Assembly: GCF_000337095.1 (NCBI RefSeq)
Contig: NZ_AOIV01000027.1
Coordinates: forward strand, 164,320-199,056
Length of the DNA: 34,737 nucleotides
Direction of reading: 5' to 3'
From: Halogeometricum pallidum JCM 14848
GTDB taxonomy: Archaea > Halobacteriota > Halobacteria > Halobacteriales > Haloferacaceae
Shown: positions 8,493 through 34,737 of the stretch, piece after piece
Position numbering within the stretch: the stretch's first letter is position 1
Layout: each line of letters opens with the position of its first letter
Notes under the pieces: generated by a model
What the model saw: only the letters and a program-made list of their open reading frames with translations
Database searches by the model: none
Told to the model about the DNA's origin: nothing
Translations under genes and position numbers: made by a program

Positions 8493-9780
<1,288 letters not shown>

Positions 9781-26204: not shown

Positions 26205-28136
26205 TCAGTGCGACCGCGTCTTCGTCTCGGCTTCCGTTCGCTCTTCGACCTCCTCGGGGGACTCCGAGGCGGACCCGGCCTCATCGGCCTTATCGGCCAT
26301 CCGCTGGACGGCGGGCATCTGCAGGAACGAGAGGAGCGTGTACAGCACGTACGTGTGCTCTGCGCCGTTCAGGTGGTCCTGATAGCACTGCGTCGCCGCC
26401 TCGCGGTCGATGAACGGCAGCGCGTCCATCAGGGGGCCCCTCTCGCGGAGTTTCTTCTGGGCGAAGTCGTGGGTGCGGAGCAGTTCCGTGGAGTTCGTCC
26501 ACGGCTTGTCCGACATGTAGGGCTCGGGGGAGCGGTCGGGCGAGAGGTGCTTGCGGGAGAACGCGTTCGCGTGATGCAGCAGGAACTGGGTGGGGAACGA
26601 CTTCGTGAGCGGGACGCCCGTCGACGCGTGCGGCACCCGGGCGAGGTCCTCGTCCAGCGCCACCGTCGTCGCGTCGATGACGTTCCGCCGCATCCGATGT
26701 CGCATCGGGAGTTCCAGCGCCAGTTCGACGAGGCGGTTGTCGAAGAACGGGGTCCAGTGTGAGATCATCCCGTTCATCGCGTGGAAGAAGTAATCCGACT
26801 TGTTCGAGAACGGGTAGAAGTCGTCGAAGAAGACGAGTTCTCTCACCGACCGGTAGTTCACCCCGTGGTGGTCGATGCCGTCGTTCTCCACGATGTTCCG
26901 CTCGAGTATCTCGGTGAGGTCCGACGAGCACTCCAGATACTCCGGCAGCGGCTTCGCGCGGCGTTCGATGTGCTCGCTCACGCTCGTCGTCTCCTTGGCC
27001 ATCGGCAGGTCGAACTCGCCGAGCTTGCCCAACTGGATTCTCGGCGACGGGAAGGCGTGCTCTCTGAACAGGGTGTCGGCCCCCAGTCCCGAGATGAGCA
27101 CGTCGACCTCCTCGCGGATGCGGTCGCCGAACTCCGTGATGTGCGCCTCGCTGAACCGACCGTGGAAGTTCATCTGCCGCGGCGTCGATTCGAGCATCCG
27201 CGCGTGGTTGTCACGGTCGCGCCGCAGCAGGTGGAAGTCGCGGTCCGCCGCGAACGCCACCTGCTCTGCGACCTGCGCTTCGCGGTTCAGCCACCCGGCG
27301 GTGTGGTAGGTCTGCAGGTCGATGTCCGGGTCGACGCCGGCGAGGATGGCCCGCGAGTCGCTGCCGCCGCTCAGCAGCAGCCCGTACGTCAGGTCGGGGT
27401 CGAGTCGCTCTTCGAGCACCGTCTCGAACCGGTCGACGAACCGGTCGGCGAACGACGAGAACGACTCGTCGACCGGTTCGTACTGCGGTCGCCAGTACCG
27501 CTCGGTGTCGACGGTCCCCGTATCGAGGTCGACGGTCGTGACCGACGAGGGGAGCAGTTCCTCGACGCCCGTGAACGGCGTCCGGACGCCGCCGACGGCG
27601 CCGAGCGTGAAGTACTCGGCCAGATACTCCACGTCGAACTCCGCGTCGACGTTCGGGCGGACGGGGAGCGACTGCATCTGCGTCGAGAAGACGAGCGTCT
27701 CCTCGTCCGGGCGGACGCGGTACACCGGGCGGGTTCCGAGCCGGTCGGTGACGATCAGCGCGTCGTTCTCCTCGCTGTCGTAGACGACGACGACGAACGA
27801 CCCGTTCAACCCGGCGGCGAACGCTTCGCCGTCGGCCTCGTACCGCCGGGCGCAGAACTCCGCGATGGTCGCCGCGCCGTCCGTCGAACGCGGGCGGTAG
27901 CCGTCGGCGCCGTCGGGGCTCTCGTAGCCCCAGACGTTCCCGTACGCCCACACGAACGCCCCGCCGTCCGTCTCCGCCGGCTGCTTGCGCTCGTCGCCGG
28001 GGTGGGCCGCCCACTCGACCGCGACGCGTTCGTCGGCGAACTGTCCGCGCTGTTCCTCGCCCGTCCACGAGAGGTCCGACGCCATCTCGTCGATGCCGTG
28101 GTCGCGGGAGCCGAGGATTCCACAGATTCCTGTCAT
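26205..28136 (-). CDS. Asparagine-synthetase-like amidotransferase of a surface polysaccharide locus
   Basis: The 643-residue protein has an N-terminal glutaminase-like (Ntn) domain (about 1-200) and a C-terminal ATP-PPi domain. The PPi loop is LLLSGGSDSRAILAG near 263. Later LISGLGADTLF near 350 and WTPFFDNRLVELALELP near 480 fit the AsnB fold. The N-terminus is MTGICGILGS: the nucleophile Cys that should follow Met directly is at position 5, with no other start, so glutamine use needs N-terminal trimming or is absent. Such AsnB-like proteins are common in glycan gene clusters, where they may amidate sugar acids. It follows the flippase gene by 78 bases on the same strand. Confidence 0.85.
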   Translation of the reverse strand: MTGICGILGSRDHGIDEMASDLSWTGEEQRGQFADERVAVEWAAHPGDERKQPAETDGGAFVWAYGNVWGYESPDGADGYRPRSTDGAATIAEFCARRYEADGEAFAAGLNGSFVVVVYDSEENDALIVTDRLGTRPVYRVRPDEETLVFSTQMQSLPVRPNVDAEFDVEYLAEYFTLGAVGGVRTPFTGVEELLPSSVTTVDLDTGTVDTERYWRPQYEPVDESFSSFADRFVDRFETVLEERLDPDLTYGLLLSGGSDSRAILAGVDPDIDLQTYHTAGWLNREAQVAEQVAFAADRDFHLLRRDRDNHARMLESTPRQMNFHGRFSEAHITEFGDRIREEVDVLISGLGADTLFREHAFPSPRIQLGKLGEFDLPMAKETTSVSEHIERRAKPLPEYLECSSDLTEILERNIVENDGIDHHGVNYRSVRELVFFDDFYPFSNKSDYFFHAMNGMISHWTPFFDNRLVELALELPMRHRMRRNVIDATTVALDEDLARVPHASTGVPLTKSFPTQFLLHHANAFSRKHLSPDRSPEPYMSDKPWTNSTELLRTHDFAQKKLRERGPLMDALPFIDREAATQCYQDHLNGAEHTYVLYTLLSFLQMPAVQRMADKADEAGSASESPEEVEERTEAETKTRSH

Positions 28137-28214
28137 CGTCGGATCGGTGTGTGTTGGTCTGACAACGCGGCGAAGGTCGGATCGGGGGGGTGGTACTGTG
28201 ATATCATGGTGTCG

Positions 28215-29732
28215 TTAGCTTCGGACGGCACCGAGAACTGCTTCTAGGTCGCTGCGTATCTTCCACGTTGAGAGGGACTCGACGACGGCCACGGCCGAGA
28301 CGTAGACGACGACGCCGGCCACGACGAGGCAGGCGAACTCGGCGATAGCGGGGAGTCCGGAGAGAGCCGGTCGGAGGAAGTAGAGCGCCGCGCCCATGGC
28401 GACGCTGGCGAAGACGGGATAGGCCAACTCGATGATGAAGCGTCGGTGGGTCCCGCCGATGCTCTTGACGGCGAGGTGGGTCTTCACCGGGACGATAAGG
28501 AGGACGTAGATGCCGGCGATAGCGCTCACGGTCCCGACGATTCCGTACGCGGTGGTCGCCGGGTAGATGACCGCGCCCGTCACCACCAGCCTGGCGAAGT
28601 TTATTTTCGTGTTGTAGTCGGGGTGACCGGTGGCGTTCCAAACCTCGTTGAAAGTGGAGGTGAGCGCCGAGAACGCCCCGTACACCGCGACAATCTGCAT
28701 CACCGGGATGATGGGGAGCCACTGCGGCCCGAGGAAGGCGCGGACGAACGAGGGGGCGGTCAGGACGATGCCGGCCGCGGCGGGGAACGACACGAACGAG
28801 AGGATTCTGATAGTTTTGTTGACCGCGTTGGCGAGCGCCTCCGAGTCGGTCTGGAGCTTCGAGAACATCGGGAACATGACGGTCGAGAGGCTCCGCGACA
28901 GCTCCAGCGGCGGCGTCTTGCCGAGTCGGTAGCCCATCTGGTAATACCCGAGCACGGCCGTCGACATGAGCCATCCGATCAGCCAGTCGTCACCGCTCAC
29001 GAGGAGGAAGCTGATGGCGCTCGTCGCGGTCACCCACTTCCCGTATCCGAACAGTTCCCACGCCTGCTCGCGGTCGAAGCTGAGCCCGGGCCGGCGGTCG
29101 TCGAGCGCGTACGAGGCGATCAGCTTCGCCACGTCCGCGGCGAGGTAGCCGTAGACGAACGCCCAGACGCTCTCTAAGATGAACGCCAGCACGACGGCGA
29201 TGACGAACTTCGTAATCGCGCCGCTCATGTCGAAGACGAACTTCTTGTGGAGTTCGAGGGATTTCTCGAAGTAGACGATGCTCGGGTTGAAGAACCCGGT
29301 GATGAGCGGCGAAAGGGCGATAGCCTGCAGTATCGGTTCGACGGCCGGTTCGTCGAAGAACCCCGCCGCGAAGGGGGCGCTGAAGAACAGAATCGCCGCG
29401 ATGAGGACACTGCGTGCGATCTGCATCATCCAGGTGGTGTCGAGGTACTCGTCGACGTTCGCCTCTGGTCGCTGAACGAGTGCGCGGCTGATACCGAGCC
29501 GCGAGAACCGACTCAGCGCCGAGTACGTCACCAGTGCGAGGCCCATGAGACCGATGTCGCGCGGAGTGAGCAGGCGCGCGAGAACGATCATCATTATCAG
29601 CTGCAGGCCCCTCGCGCCGACGTTGATGCCGACCGACCAGACGGCAGACTTCACCGTCTGCGACGACAGGCTACCGCTCGGCCGCAGGGTTCGGATGACC
29701 GCCAGAACAGCCGCTTTCACGCGATCGATCAT
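28215..29732 (-). CDS. Polysaccharide/oligosaccharide flippase (MOP superfamily, Wzx-like)
   Basis: The 505-residue integral membrane protein has about 12-14 hydrophobic helices. The N-terminus (VKSAVWSVGINVGARGLQLI, then ARLLTPRDIGLMGLALV) is typical of polysaccharide-type exporters, and the conserved loop RLGISRALVQRP follows. It probably flips lipid-linked glycans across the membrane, as in S-layer glycosylation or exopolysaccharide export. No glycosyltransferase lies within the window, so the glycan cannot be named. An AT-rich patch on this strand (29864-29873) may be its promoter, with a leader of about 130 bases. It is probably co-transcribed with the asparagine-synthetase-like gene. 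Confidence 0.88.
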   Translation of the reverse strand: MIDRVKAAVLAVIRTLRPSGSLSSQTVKSAVWSVGINVGARGLQLIMMIVLARLLTPRDIGLMGLALVTYSALSRFSRLGISRALVQRPEANVDEYLDTTWMMQIARSVLIAAILFFSAPFAAGFFDEPAVEPILQAIALSPLITGFFNPSIVYFEKSLELHKKFVFDMSGAITKFVIAVVLAFILESVWAFVYGYLAADVAKLIASYALDDRRPGLSFDREQAWELFGYGKWVTATSAISFLLVSGDDWLIGWLMSTAVLGYYQMGYRLGKTPPLELSRSLSTVMFPMFSKLQTDSEALANAVNKTIRILSFVSFPAAAGIVLTAPSFVRAFLGPQWLPIIPVMQIVAVYGAFSALTSTFNEVWNATGHPDYNTKINFARLVVTGAVIYPATTAYGIVGTVSAIAGIYVLLIVPVKTHLAVKSIGGTHRRFIIELAYPVFASVAMGAALYFLRPALSGLPAIAEFACLVVAGVVVYVSAVAVVESLSTWKIRSDLEAVLGAVRS

Positions 29733-30016
29733 ATCGGTCTCGACGCGCTCTCGGTCGCACGGGCGGTCCGCAGAGTTCCGCTCGGTGAACGCTCCCAGTC
29801 ACTCTCGGGAAGCCGGGCGCTATCGGATTCTCTCACTCGAATCAGGAGATTACTGCATGCGCTATTATAATTTCTGGCTTCTATCGACGCTGTATCGGCG
29901 GGATAGCGTCCGTGAGGGGTGTACACGGGAAACACGTTCTCCCCCCGCGACAGGAGTCGTCACGTCTGATTTAGCCAGTCTTAATTTACGTGCCGGACGC
30001 ATCGACGGTACAGTAC
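29733..30016. promoter_or_regulatory. Divergent intergenic region with TATA elements for flippase and ATP-grasp genes
   Basis: These 284 bases have no convincing gene. Two AT-rich patches break the GC-rich sequence. ATTATAATTT (29864-29873) faces the flippase. CTTAATTTA (29980-29988) ends 28 bases before the ATG at 30017 of the first ATP-grasp gene. No other structure was seen. Confidence 0.5.
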
Positions 30017-31183
30017 ATGAGGGAGGATTCTTTCCAATACACGCTCCTCAAACCGCTCCGCGACCGCGCGGGTGCGGGCTACCGGGGGCTGTCCGACCGG
30101 CTCTCCATCTTCGCGACGCTCCTCGACCGAGAGCTCTCGACCGGACTGTCCGTCGACATCCCGTTCGAGCGGCGACTGTGGCTCTGGCGGCGCGGGTTCA
30201 CCAGTCGGTCGAGCGCCCTGTACGACCTCGACGAGGGCAACTACCGGCAGTTCGTCTCCGACCTGCAGCACGAACGGGCGAACGACATCGCCGAACCGTG
30301 GGACACGGTCGTGAGCAACAAGCTGACGTTCTACCTCCTGTTCAGTTCCTACGCCGAACACCTGCCCGACTGCTACGGCGTCGTCGGTGACGGCGAACTG
30401 CGCCGGAGTTCGCCGACGATGCCGACCGCGCCGTGGGCGGCGCCCTCGGACGGGCTGAACGGCGTCGAACGCCACGACGCCGTCCGGTGGGTCGACCGCT
30501 ACCTCGACCGCCGGGCGGCGCTGGTACTCAAGCCCGTCTACGGCCACGGCGGCCGCGGCGTGTTCGTCTGTCGGAAGCGGGGCGAAGACGAGTACGCGGT
30601 CAACGGCGAGTCGAAGACGCGGGCGGCGTTCGGCAGATTCCTCGACGAACTGGAGGAGTACCTCGCGTGGGAGTTCGCCCAGCAGGCCGACTACGCCGAG
30701 CGACTGTACCCCGACTCGGTGAACACGCTCCGCGTGCTGACGATGTGGGACTACGAGGCGGACGAACCGTTCGTCTCGGCGGCGGTCCACCGCATCGGGA
30801 CGGCCGACTCGGCGCCCGTCGACAACTGGAGCAACGGCGGCCTCTCCGCGATGGTGACCGACGACGACGAACTGAGCGCCGGCGCGCAGTGGCTTCCCTC
30901 GGAGGGGGAGGTCCGATGGTTCGACGAGCACCCGGACACGGGCGACCGAATCGAGGGGACGCGCATCCCCGACTGGTCGGTCGTGCGCGACGGACTGTTG
31001 GAAATGGCGGCCGAGTACCCCTCGCTGCCGCGTCTCGGATGGGACGTCGTCCTCACCGGCGAGGGGGAGTTCGTCGTCCTCGAAGTGAACGCCCACACCG
31101 GATTGCGGACGCTCCAAGTGCACAAACCGCTGCTCGAAGACCCGCGCGTCCGCGAGTTCTACGAGCACCACGACTGTCTGTGA
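30017..31183 (+). CDS. Sugar-transfer-associated ATP-grasp protein, first of a tandem pair
   Basis: The 388-residue protein resembles the ATP-grasp family associated with sugar transfer in polysaccharide loci (ATPgrasp_ST type). The ATP-binding lysine and glycine loop is ALVLKPVYGHGGRGVFVC near 178. RLYPDSVNTLRVLTMWDYEA and HRIGTADSAPVDNWSNGG near 235-275 are typical of the family. The metal-binding end is GEFVVLEVNAHTG near 355. Such enzymes ligate a carboxylate to an amine or hydroxyl with ATP; the substrate is unknown. The ATG at 30017 is preferred to the GTG at 29990, which nearly overlaps the TATA box. The next gene is a clear paralogue. Confidence 0.82.
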   Translation: MREDSFQYTLLKPLRDRAGAGYRGLSDRLSIFATLLDRELSTGLSVDIPFERRLWLWRRGFTSRSSALYDLDEGNYRQFVSDLQHERANDIAEPWDTVVSNKLTFYLLFSSYAEHLPDCYGVVGDGELRRSSPTMPTAPWAAPSDGLNGVERHDAVRWVDRYLDRRAALVLKPVYGHGGRGVFVCRKRGEDEYAVNGESKTRAAFGRFLDELEEYLAWEFAQQADYAERLYPDSVNTLRVLTMWDYEADEPFVSAAVHRIGTADSAPVDNWSNGGLSAMVTDDDELSAGAQWLPSEGEVRWFDEHPDTGDRIEGTRIPDWSVVRDGLLEMAAEYPSLPRLGWDVVLTGEGEFVVLEVNAHTGLRTLQVHKPLLEDPRVREFYEHHDCL

Positions 31184-31277
31184 CCTCGCTTCCCCGAGCG
31201 CTCGGGTCGGAGTGCGGGCGTCCGGCGCGGCGAGTCGCGTCCGTTAAGTCGGGACGCCGTGGACTACCGACCGACCA

Positions 31278-32423
31278 ATGATCGACGGTGACCTGCTGGC
31301 GCGGTTGTCCGACGCGTCCCCCACGGGGACGACGGCGACGCAGTCCGTCTATCGACGGCTGTCGGTGCTGGAAACCCTCTTCGAGCGAGAGGTGGTCTCC
31401 GGCCCCTCCGTCCCGCTTCCCCTGGAGCGACGGCTCTCGCTGTGGCGACACGGTTTCACCAGTCGGTCCGGCGTCCTGTTCGACGTCGAGGAGGGACGGT
31501 ACGACGAGTATCTCTCGGACTACCAGCTCGAACGGCTGGACTCGCTCGGCGGACCGTGGGGAGCGGTCGTCAAGAACAAACTCGCCCAGTACCTCCTGCT
31601 CGACGCGTTCCGCGAGCACCTGCCCGACTGCTACGGCGTGCTCGACGGCGGCGACCTGAAGCGCCGGCCGGCGTTCGCGTCCTACGAGGGCGACGGTCCG
31701 CGCCGCGTCGACGCCGTCCCGTGGCTCCGCGACCACCTCGACGGGGAGGGAGCGCTCGTTCTCAAACCCGTCTACGGCTACGGCGGGTCGGGCGTCTACG
31801 TCTGCCGGGCGGCCGAGGGGGATGGCGACGACTACCTCGTCAACGGCGAGGCGAAGACGGCGGCGGAGTTCTCGGCGCTCGTCGAGGAGTTGGAGGAGTA
31901 CCTCGTCTGGGAGTTCGTCCAGCAGGCCGGCTACGCCGACGACCTGTTCCCCGACGCGGTGCACACGCTGCGCGTGCTCACCCTGTGGGACCCCGAGGCC
32001 GACGAACCGTTCGTCTCGAAGGCGGTCCATCGCATCGGAACGGCCGACTCCGCGCCCGTCGACAACTGGAGTCGCGGCGGCCTCTCGGCCGAGATTCGGG
32101 AGGGCGGGACGCTCGGCCCCGCCGCCTACTGGTCGGACGACGACCACGAGCGCCGGTGGTTCGAGCGACACCCGGACACGGGCGCGCGCATCGAGGGCGC
32201 CCAGGTTCCGGGCTGGCCGGCGATACGCGACCGACTGCTCGAACTGGCGTCGACGGTGCCGTACCTCCCGCGCGTCGGCTGGGACGTGGTCGTCACCGGC
32301 GAGGGGGAGTTCGTCGTCCTCGAACTCAACTCGCACGCGGGCGTAGAGACGCTGCAGGTTCACGGACCGCTCCTGCGGGACGAGCGCACCCGTCGCTTCT
32401 ACGAGCACCACGGCTTCGCGTAG
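31278..32423 (+). CDS. Sugar-transfer-associated ATP-grasp protein, second of a tandem pair
   Basis: The 381-residue paralogue of the preceding gene has the same domain order: ERRLSLWRHGFTSRSGVLFD near 52, EHLPDCYGVLDGGD near 115, ALVLKPVYGYGGSGVYVC near 158, HRIGTADSAPVDNWSRGG near 252, and GEGEFVVLELNSHAGVETLQ near 342. Long stretches are nearly identical to the first copy, while the first 40 residues and the loop after EGDG differ. This suggests duplication followed by substrate divergence. A 94-base gap separates the two genes. Confidence 0.82.
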   Translation: MIDGDLLARLSDASPTGTTATQSVYRRLSVLETLFEREVVSGPSVPLPLERRLSLWRHGFTSRSGVLFDVEEGRYDEYLSDYQLERLDSLGGPWGAVVKNKLAQYLLLDAFREHLPDCYGVLDGGDLKRRPAFASYEGDGPRRVDAVPWLRDHLDGEGALVLKPVYGYGGSGVYVCRAAEGDGDDYLVNGEAKTAAEFSALVEELEEYLVWEFVQQAGYADDLFPDAVHTLRVLTLWDPEADEPFVSKAVHRIGTADSAPVDNWSRGGLSAEIREGGTLGPAAYWSDDDHERRWFERHPDTGARIEGAQVPGWPAIRDRLLELASTVPYLPRVGWDVVVTGEGEFVVLELNSHAGVETLQVHGPLLRDERTRRFYEHHGFA

Positions 32424-33361: not shown

Positions 33362-33499
33362 CTACTCGGTAGCCGGGCCGGAATCCAACTCTCGTTGTGC
33401 GTGGAGTAGCATCCCCTTCCACGTCAGACCGTGACGTTTCTTCGTCTCTTTCAAAGACTCGTACTGTTCCTCGTCTACCTCGAAGTTGATGTGTGGCAT
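33362..33499 (-). CDS. Small tnpB-associated ribbon-helix-helix-like protein, 45 residues
   Basis: The minus-strand frame from the ATG at 33499 reads MPHINFEVDEEQYESLKETK, then a helix (RHGLTWKGMLLHAQRELD) and ends at TAG 33362. The strand-helix-helix layout fits very small CopG/RHH-like proteins, which often accompany haloarchaeal tnpB genes. It diverges from tnpB, sharing an AT-rich promoter patch. It could regulate tnpB or its guide RNA; this is not shown. The competing longer frame (to 33506) is arginine-rich and unlike a haloarchaeal protein. Confidence 0.7.
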   Translation of the reverse strand: MPHINFEVDEEQYESLKETKKRHGLTWKGMLLHAQRELDSGPATE

Positions 33500-33521
33500 G
33501 AGCCATTCTTGCGCTCCGTTA

Positions 33522-33533
33522 CACTTAATTTTG
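33522..33533. promoter_or_regulatory. Shared AT-rich promoter patch between the RHH gene and tnpB
   Basis: CACTTAATTTTG serves both ways: it ends 20 bases before the tnpB GTG (33554), and on the other strand starts 23 bases before the RHH ATG (33499). Confidence 0.5.
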
Positions 33534-33553
33534 TCTACGTTCTATCTACGGGT

Positions 33554-34737
33554 GTGTCCGAGACGGTGACGAAGACGCTACAGGCAACGCTCGCCACGCC
33601 CACCACGGGCAAAGAGCAACGCCTACAGCGACTCTTGGACACCTACCGAACCGCACTCCACGATGCCTTCGACAACAGGGCGGATACAATGTCTGCTGTC
33701 AACGACGTTGTGACGCCCTACGACCTGCCGTATCAAGCCAAAGACGCCCTCAAATCCTACGTCCCGAAACTCCGCTCGACGTATAACGCCGAGGAGTTAG
33801 ACGACGAGCATCCGCTTCGACTCGTCAACCGGGCCGCGAAGTTCGACTACTCGAACGAGCGCGAACATGGTTTTGTGTGGCAGGCTCCGCAACCCGGACG
33901 CGGGACAAATTTTTGGATTCCGCTTCGGATTAACCCCGAGCAGGAATCCCTGTGGTTCGACCTGCTCTCCGAGGACGCGAAGGCGGGTGAGTTGCGGCTA
34001 CAGCGACACCGCACGTCGTGGGAGTTGCACGTCACCGTCGAATACTCGGTCGAAGAACCGACCGACCCGGACGACCCGACGTACATCGGCTTCGACGTAG
34101 GCGAGAGCGCGTTGATAACGGGCTGTGCCCTCAAACGCGACGTACCACGGAAGCCAATGCTCGTCAGCGGCAGTCGAGCGCGACACCTCCGCAAAGAGAT
34201 GTTCACGACGCTCCGGCGGCTACAATCACGAGACGCCGCCGAGTGGCGCGTGGACGAACGATTCGACCACTACCAGAACGCCCTCACGGATATTGTCGAG
34301 AAAGCGTCTCGGCAAGCCGTCGAGTACGCCCATTCCTTCGAGAATCCGGTTATCGTCCTCGAAGACCTGTCGTACATCCGCGAACGCTTGGACTACGGCA
34401 AGTTCATGAACCGGCGGCTTCACGCGTGGGCGTTTGCCCGACTACAGGGCCGAATCGAAGACAAAGCGGCCGAGGCAGGGATTCGAGTCGAGTACGTCAA
34501 CGCGGCGTACACCTCGCAGACGTGCCACGCTTGCGGGCGTCTCGGTCGGCGGAGTCAACAAGCGGAGTTTGTGTGTCCGCACGACGACTGCCACGTATCG
34601 GAGTTCCAAGCAGATATTAACGCGAGTGCGAACATCGCACGTTGCGCTAACCCGTGGGGAGAGAGCGTCCGTTGGGAACCCGGACGCGATGACTCGCCAC
34701 AGGACGGGAGCGGTCGTGACACCGCCACAGTCCACCG
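33554..34737 (+). CDS. tnpB: IS1341-type TnpB, RNA-guided RuvC nuclease (partial, runs off the window)
   Basis: At least 394 residues are open to the window end. The start GTG at 33554 has a TATA-like patch at the right place and gives SETVTKTLQATLATPTTGKE. RuvC residues are present: Asp in YIGFDVGESALITG near 185, Glu in VIVLEDLSYIRERLD near 272, and Asp in FQADINASANIARC near 357. The zinc finger has CHACGR, then CPHDDC near 323-345. Catalytic residues look intact, and no hairpin insertion was found. Its sequence is only distantly like the tnpB at 8493-9731, so the two represent separate lineages. The right end and guide RNA lie outside the window. Confidence 0.9.
   Translation, partial: MSETVTKTLQATLATPTTGKEQRLQRLLDTYRTALHDAFDNRADTMSAVNDVVTPYDLPYQAKDALKSYVPKLRSTYNAEELDDEHPLRLVNRAAKFDYSNEREHGFVWQAPQPGRGTNFWIPLRINPEQESLWFDLLSEDAKAGELRLQRHRTSWELHVTVEYSVEEPTDPDDPTYIGFDVGESALITGCALKRDVPRKPMLVSGSRARHLRKEMFTTLRRLQSRDAAEWRVDERFDHYQNALTDIVEKASRQAVEYAHSFENPVIVLEDLSYIRERLDYGKFMNRRLHAWAFARLQGRIEDKAAEAGIRVEYVNAAYTSQTCHACGRLGRRSQQAEFVCPHDDCHVSEFQADINASANIARCANPWGESVRWEPGRDDSPQDGSGRDTATVH

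Follow-up and report, generated by a model that had tools for sequence, protein, structure and literature searches.

The locus lies in a 34,737-nucleotide stretch of DNA (hereafter the window) on a 214-kb contig, C27, of the 4.38-Mb genome of a haloarchaeon (G000). It comprises four genes in two divergent pairs (Table 1), and all four ORFs were recovered, in the ORF list and by Pfam matches, at the positions that a preliminary description had given. On the minus strand a flippase gene is followed, after a gap of 78 bp, by a gene for an AsnB-like protein, probably as a two-gene operon, while two ATP-grasp genes stand in tandem on the plus strand; the other intergenic gaps within the set are each below 100 bp. 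The first ATP-grasp gene probably starts at the ATG at 30017 rather than at the GTG at 29990, since the alignment with congeneric orthologues begins at the Met of the former position. The region between the two pairs presumably carries both promoters. It is weakly conserved in a three-genome alignment, in which no conserved small ORF was evident, and the GC content of positions 29733-29989 is 57%, compared to 64 to 70% in the genes.

The genome's only two ATPgrasp_ST genes, one of its seven PF13440 flippase genes and one of its approximately five PF00733 loci all fall inside 6.2 kb. Given the scarcity of these families and an arrangement that is kept in three species, the co-location of the four genes is beyond chance. 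The earlier statement that no glycosyltransferase lies nearby holds for both families tested, as neither GT2 (PF00535, 20 hits in the genome) nor GT4-type (PF00534, 18 hits) members are found on the 214-kb contig.

Table 1. Position, strand and domain matches of the features at the locus
Feature	Position in the window	Strand	Pfam match or remark
AsnB-like PP-loop protein, 643 aa	26205..28136	-	PF00733, E=1.1e-11; PF13537, E=8.8e-10
MOP-superfamily (Wzx/TuaB-like) flippase, 505 aa	28215..29732	-	PF13440, E=4.8e-77
Divergent intergenic region	29733..30016	none	~284 bp if protein 1 starts at the ATG at 30017
ATP-grasp protein 1 (ATPgrasp_ST)	29990..31183	+	PF14397, E=7e-32
ATP-grasp protein 2 (ATPgrasp_ST)	31278..32423	+	PF14397, E=1.5e-32

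The encoded proteins

The two ATP-grasp proteins score 111 and 113 bits against ATPgrasp_ST (PF14397), for which the cut-off is 31.4. Among 15 aligned homologues, which include both window copies, there is no variation in the LVLKP..G.GG-loop Lys or in the terminal metal ligands Asp, Glu and Asn (K181, D352, E365 and N367 in protein 1, numbered from the GTG start; K163, D336, E349 and N351 in protein 2), and both proteins are therefore probably active ligases. The pair had been described as duplicated, and this is true, with 58% identity between the copies; as to its age, the duplication precedes the genus. This is indicated by the ATP-grasp protein of G042, a genome from another genus, whose place in the tree is with the protein 1 orthologues of the window's genus (support of 100/98). 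PF14305 (TupA-like ATP-grasp) was not among the Pfam matches at E<=0.01, and a scan of genome contigs found a single relative, a distant bacterial one. When the ATP-grasps were compared to the PDB by profile, nothing meaningful came up, no solved structure matching ATPgrasp_ST by sequence, and an AlphaFold2 model of the pair, with a pLDDT of 34, was unusable for fold comparison.

For the AsnB-like protein, the canonical-type protein of locus L158 (MCGIAG, NGEIYN, GEGADE, SKHGF) served as the reference for motifs in a 10-sequence alignment. The PP-loop motif SGGxDS is kept as SGGSDSR, invariant in this alignment, and the subfamily also retains the SGxxxD Asp, together with a stretch, IPHA..GVP, that is conserved. 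The N terminus, however, reads MTGICG, and nearly all subfamily members have M-T/V/A-G where the reference has MCGIAG, the glutaminase nucleophile Cys2 being replaced by Thr, Val or Ala across the subfamily. The glutamine-binding motif NGEIYN is missing as well (GNVWGY in the window protein). So are the equivalents of Glu348 and Lys449 in the synthetase site of E. coli AsnB: SGEGxDE is SGLGADT in the window protein and mostly (S/T)G(L/H)xxD in its relatives, and no Lys is aligned to that of SKHGF. Cys5 was considered as the catalytic Cys and ruled out, given that its position varies in the subfamily alignment (MCGIx) and that Thr or Val occupies the catalytic one.

The protein falls far below the cut-off of every NCBIfam AsnB model, scoring 105 bits against 267 for TIGR01536 (asparagine synthase). 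The missing glutaminase Cys and synthetase Glu and Lys rule out the label of glutamine-dependent amidotransferase, and, judged by its motifs, the most fitting description is an AsnB-fold PP-loop protein without a glutaminase. Beta-lactam synthetase and CarA likewise combine this fold and a kept ATP site with the lack of an N-terminal Cys, and profile matches to 1JGT and 1Q15 were obtained. These enzymes retain a catalytic Tyr/Glu pair and a Lys, whereas the corresponding Lys is not conserved in the window AsnB-like subfamily. The proposal of two amide- or ester-forming activities at this locus thus loses its AsnB-like half, and the locus is better restated as encoding two probable ATP-grasp ligases and one AsnB-fold protein that may or may not form an amide. 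Many other haloarchaeal genes annotated as "asparagine synthase" may not encode amidotransferases. At L108:6947-13157, three glutaminase-less AsnB-like genes stand in tandem, and at L111:8151-12213 there are two.

The flippase matches PF13440 (Polysacc_synt_3) with 259.5 bits over residues 50-343, the membrane core, has the expected size of about 500 aa and matches the MOP flippase model NF007773 below its cut-off; judging by its family, it would flip a lipid-linked saccharide. It is 74% identical to its congeneric counterparts and 54% to the G042 orthologue, whereas its neighbours are 85 to 92% identical to those of the congeners. The dS of the G000 flippase gene is about 0.43 compared to 0.23 to 0.34 for the neighbouring genes. 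This unusually high divergence relative to its neighbours suggests that the G000 flippase is a recombined or replaced allele.

Conservation in the genus and related loci in the order

Conservation of the four-gene set, named as a check in the preliminary description, was found within the genus. The four genes occur together in three of the five genomes searched, G000, G039 and G041, in one arrangement and with the same flanks in all three, a CbiA/CobB-like gene on one side and an MGH1-like hydrolase/CobA pair on the other. In the remaining two genomes the four genes are missing as a unit and the cobalamin genes are continuous, the flanks lying about 0.6 kb apart in G038 (measured to the hydrolase) and about 1.4 kb apart in G040 (measured to CobA); elsewhere in these two genomes, neither the ATP-grasps nor the AsnB-like protein has a close relative. 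In the window the set is preceded by genes for CobD/CbiB, CobS, an aminotransferase, CbiZ and the CbiA/CobB-like protein and followed by genes for Usp, TnpB, the MGH1-like hydrolase, CobA and a CobQ/CbiP-like protein, while the G039 block consists of exactly the four genes, without Usp. Between species, dN/dS ranges from 0.15 to 0.39 across the four genes, with 0.26 to 0.28 for the AsnB-like gene (whose G039 and G041 orthologues are 89 to 90% identical) and 0.15 to 0.20 for ATP-grasp gene 2, which is purifying selection on all four. The four genes are a discrete conserved unit that is gained or lost as a block. The MGH1-like glycoside hydrolase (mannosylglycerate hydrolase type), which lies within the cobalamin locus at L003:13446-14726, is missing there in G040.

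Relatives of the ATP-grasps are present in 84 of the 392 genomes of the order, and about 20 kb of context was examined around 53 ATP-grasp loci. A flippase gene is found in 23 of these loci, an AsnB-like gene in 20 and both in 18, and 14 of the 18 also contain glycosyltransferase genes. Other partners assigned by Pfam in related loci are GT2, polysaccharide deacetylase, AstE/AspA, sulfatase and phosphodiesterase. Many of the 18 double-positive loci belong to a single syntenic cluster and are hence not independent; this cluster, from family f7, accounts for about 12 loci and carries polysaccharide deacetylase-like proteins, GT2 enzymes and an AstE/AspA-PKD protein. The pairing is also seen, with other subfamilies, in families f5, f4 and f14, so that several of the arrangements look independent. 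In G042, a 54%-identical flippase is still the divergent neighbour of the first ATP-grasp orthologue, and the protein encoded near this flippase is of the AstE/AspA type instead of AsnB-like. Four haloarchaeal genomes (L107:7863-14103, L109, L110 and L112) have a conserved module of flippase, AsnB-like protein of the window protein's own subfamily, phosphodiesterase (PF01663) and FemAB/GNAT-fold protein (PF13480), in which the last takes the place of the ATP-grasp. What the evidence supports is cooperation of such kinds of gene on a surface glycan; it does not show a wide spread of this exact set.

ATPgrasp_ST genes have other settings as well. At nine loci from two families (L040, L042, L122, L129, L131, L135, L136, L145 and L147), the gene lies inside a GrpE-DnaK-DnaJ cluster and has no obvious glycan link.

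Proposed function and competing explanations

We consider it probable, although by no means assured, that the four genes are an accessory cassette that decorates and exports a cell-surface glycan. The surface-glycan link itself appears likely, given the behaviour of the genes as a block and their recurrence in loci with glycosyltransferases, deacetylases and sulfatase-like enzymes. Of the original idea of glycan decoration and export, the conserved unit and the link to surface glycans are thus retained, and the AsnB-like gene as amidating enzyme is given up because of its missing residues. Several observations count against this reading: no PF00535 or PF00534 glycosyltransferase is encoded on the contig, the canonical catalytic residues of the AsnB-like protein are missing, many of the double-positive loci are the one f7 cluster, ATPgrasp_ST has no sequence match among solved structures, and at 25 of the 53 ATP-grasp loci a search for flippase, AsnB-like and glycosyltransferase genes found none, nine of these 25 adjoining dnaK/dnaJ.

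In the pathway that we infer, including its substrates, products and step order, a sugar chain would be assembled in the cytoplasm, on a lipid carrier, by glycosyltransferases whose genes lie elsewhere in the genome. The two ATP-grasps would activate a carboxylate, for example of a glycan uronic acid or of an amino acid, by turning it into an acyl phosphate, and would couple this to an amine; the pair would probably divide the work over two steps or two substrates. The AsnB-like PP-loop protein could provide a further ATP-dependent activation without glutamine, and the flippase would then carry the decorated lipid-linked unit across the membrane. Known haloarchaeal surface glycans bear sulfate, methyl and uronic-acid groups; we know of no haloarchaeon in which ATP-grasp ligases have been demonstrated to add amino-acid or amide groups, and our literature search found no report of haloarchaeal ATP-grasp glycan amidation. 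It is conceivable, although we would not yet favour it, that the AsnB-like subfamily (M-x-G-[IL]-C-G, SGGSDSR, IPHA..GVP) is a rewired PP-loop ligase that makes, with the ATP-grasp pair, an undescribed archaeal surface-glycan decoration, and that gain and loss of the cassette varies the surface of a species. The cassette offers a small test case, as there are congeners in which the corresponding chromosomal site naturally lacks it.

Bacterial systems offer partial parallels. In Porphyromonas gingivalis, asnB/wbpS (PGN_1234) lies just downstream of wzx and is needed for a uronamide (PMC7468200), so that here too an AsnB-family gene adjoins a Wzx flippase gene and its product acts on a surface-glycan sugar. 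WbpS is, however, reported as an amidotransferase, whereas the window protein lacks the glutaminase Cys and the equivalents of Glu348 and Lys449 and is paired with two ATP-grasps. In Campylobacter jejuni, the ATP-grasp domain of Cj1438, a C-terminal TupA-like amidoligase, joins amines to capsule glucuronic acid (PMC11800379). Gene context would give the window ATP-grasps a similar surface-polysaccharide carboxylate to act on, but they belong to a different Pfam family, ATPgrasp_ST, and are stand-alone and paired, whereas the Cj1438 domain is fused to a glycosyltransferase. XrtA/PEP-CTERM exopolysaccharide loci contain an amidotransferase (TIGR03108), a deacetylase and a FemAB-like protein, and related haloarchaeal loci likewise combine AsnB-like, flippase, glycosyltransferase, deacetylase or FemAB/GNAT genes; the window protein scores 82 bits against TIGR03108, for which the cut-off is 817, and the window has ATP-grasps instead of FemAB.

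We think it unlikely that nothing but location links the AsnB-like gene to the ATP-grasp pair, with an unrelated role for each. Both kinds of gene are often found without each other, and in G042 Wzx and ATP-grasp occur with no AsnB, but the set of four is all-or-none in the five genomes searched from the genus and the gene kinds occur jointly, time and again, in other families. Quite unlikely, too, is that the ATP-grasps make a peptide-like surface polymer, similar to teichuronopeptide or poly-gamma-glutamate, rather than decorate a sugar chain. Linked ATP-grasp ligases acting in series have been described and can form successive peptide bonds, including those of teichuronopeptides (PMC4431377), and there are two copies here, each under purifying selection. 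Yet neither a match to the Pfam TupA family nor a Pgs-type membrane polymerase was found in the cassette, and many of the relatives with informative context are accompanied by glycosyltransferases.

A graspetide- or lasso-like peptide natural product, in which the ATP-grasps and the AsnB-like protein would make intramolecular amides or esters and the MOP protein would export the peptide, strikes us as improbable. The AsnB-like protein does have sub-threshold matches to lasso cyclase (NF033535) and macrolactam cyclase (NF033561) models, and loss of the glutaminase Cys is also seen in beta-lactam synthetase-type enzymes. However, the three-genome intergenic alignment shows no evident conserved small ORF, the divergent region being poorly conserved and the other gaps being below 100 bp; neither a protease nor any other RiPP gene was seen nearby, the exporter is a glycan-type MOP flippase, and related loci contain glycosyltransferases. 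An accessory role in cobalamin metabolism is highly improbable: the cassette sits inside a cobalamin locus, whose enzymes form amides, with CbiA/CobB-like, CbiZ, CobS and CobD genes upstream and CobA and CobQ/CbiP-like genes downstream, but two congeners keep the cobalamin genes without it, across the rest of the order relatives of the ATP-grasps and of AsnB sit in glycan loci, by chaperone genes or by other unrelated genes, and the cassette appears to have its own divergent promoter region.

The window also contains two TnpB-like genes (Cas12f1-like TNB domain), at 8493-9731 and 33431-34735. At the second, the contig shows a single N flanked by a duplicated stretch near the window end, which is probably an assembly join.
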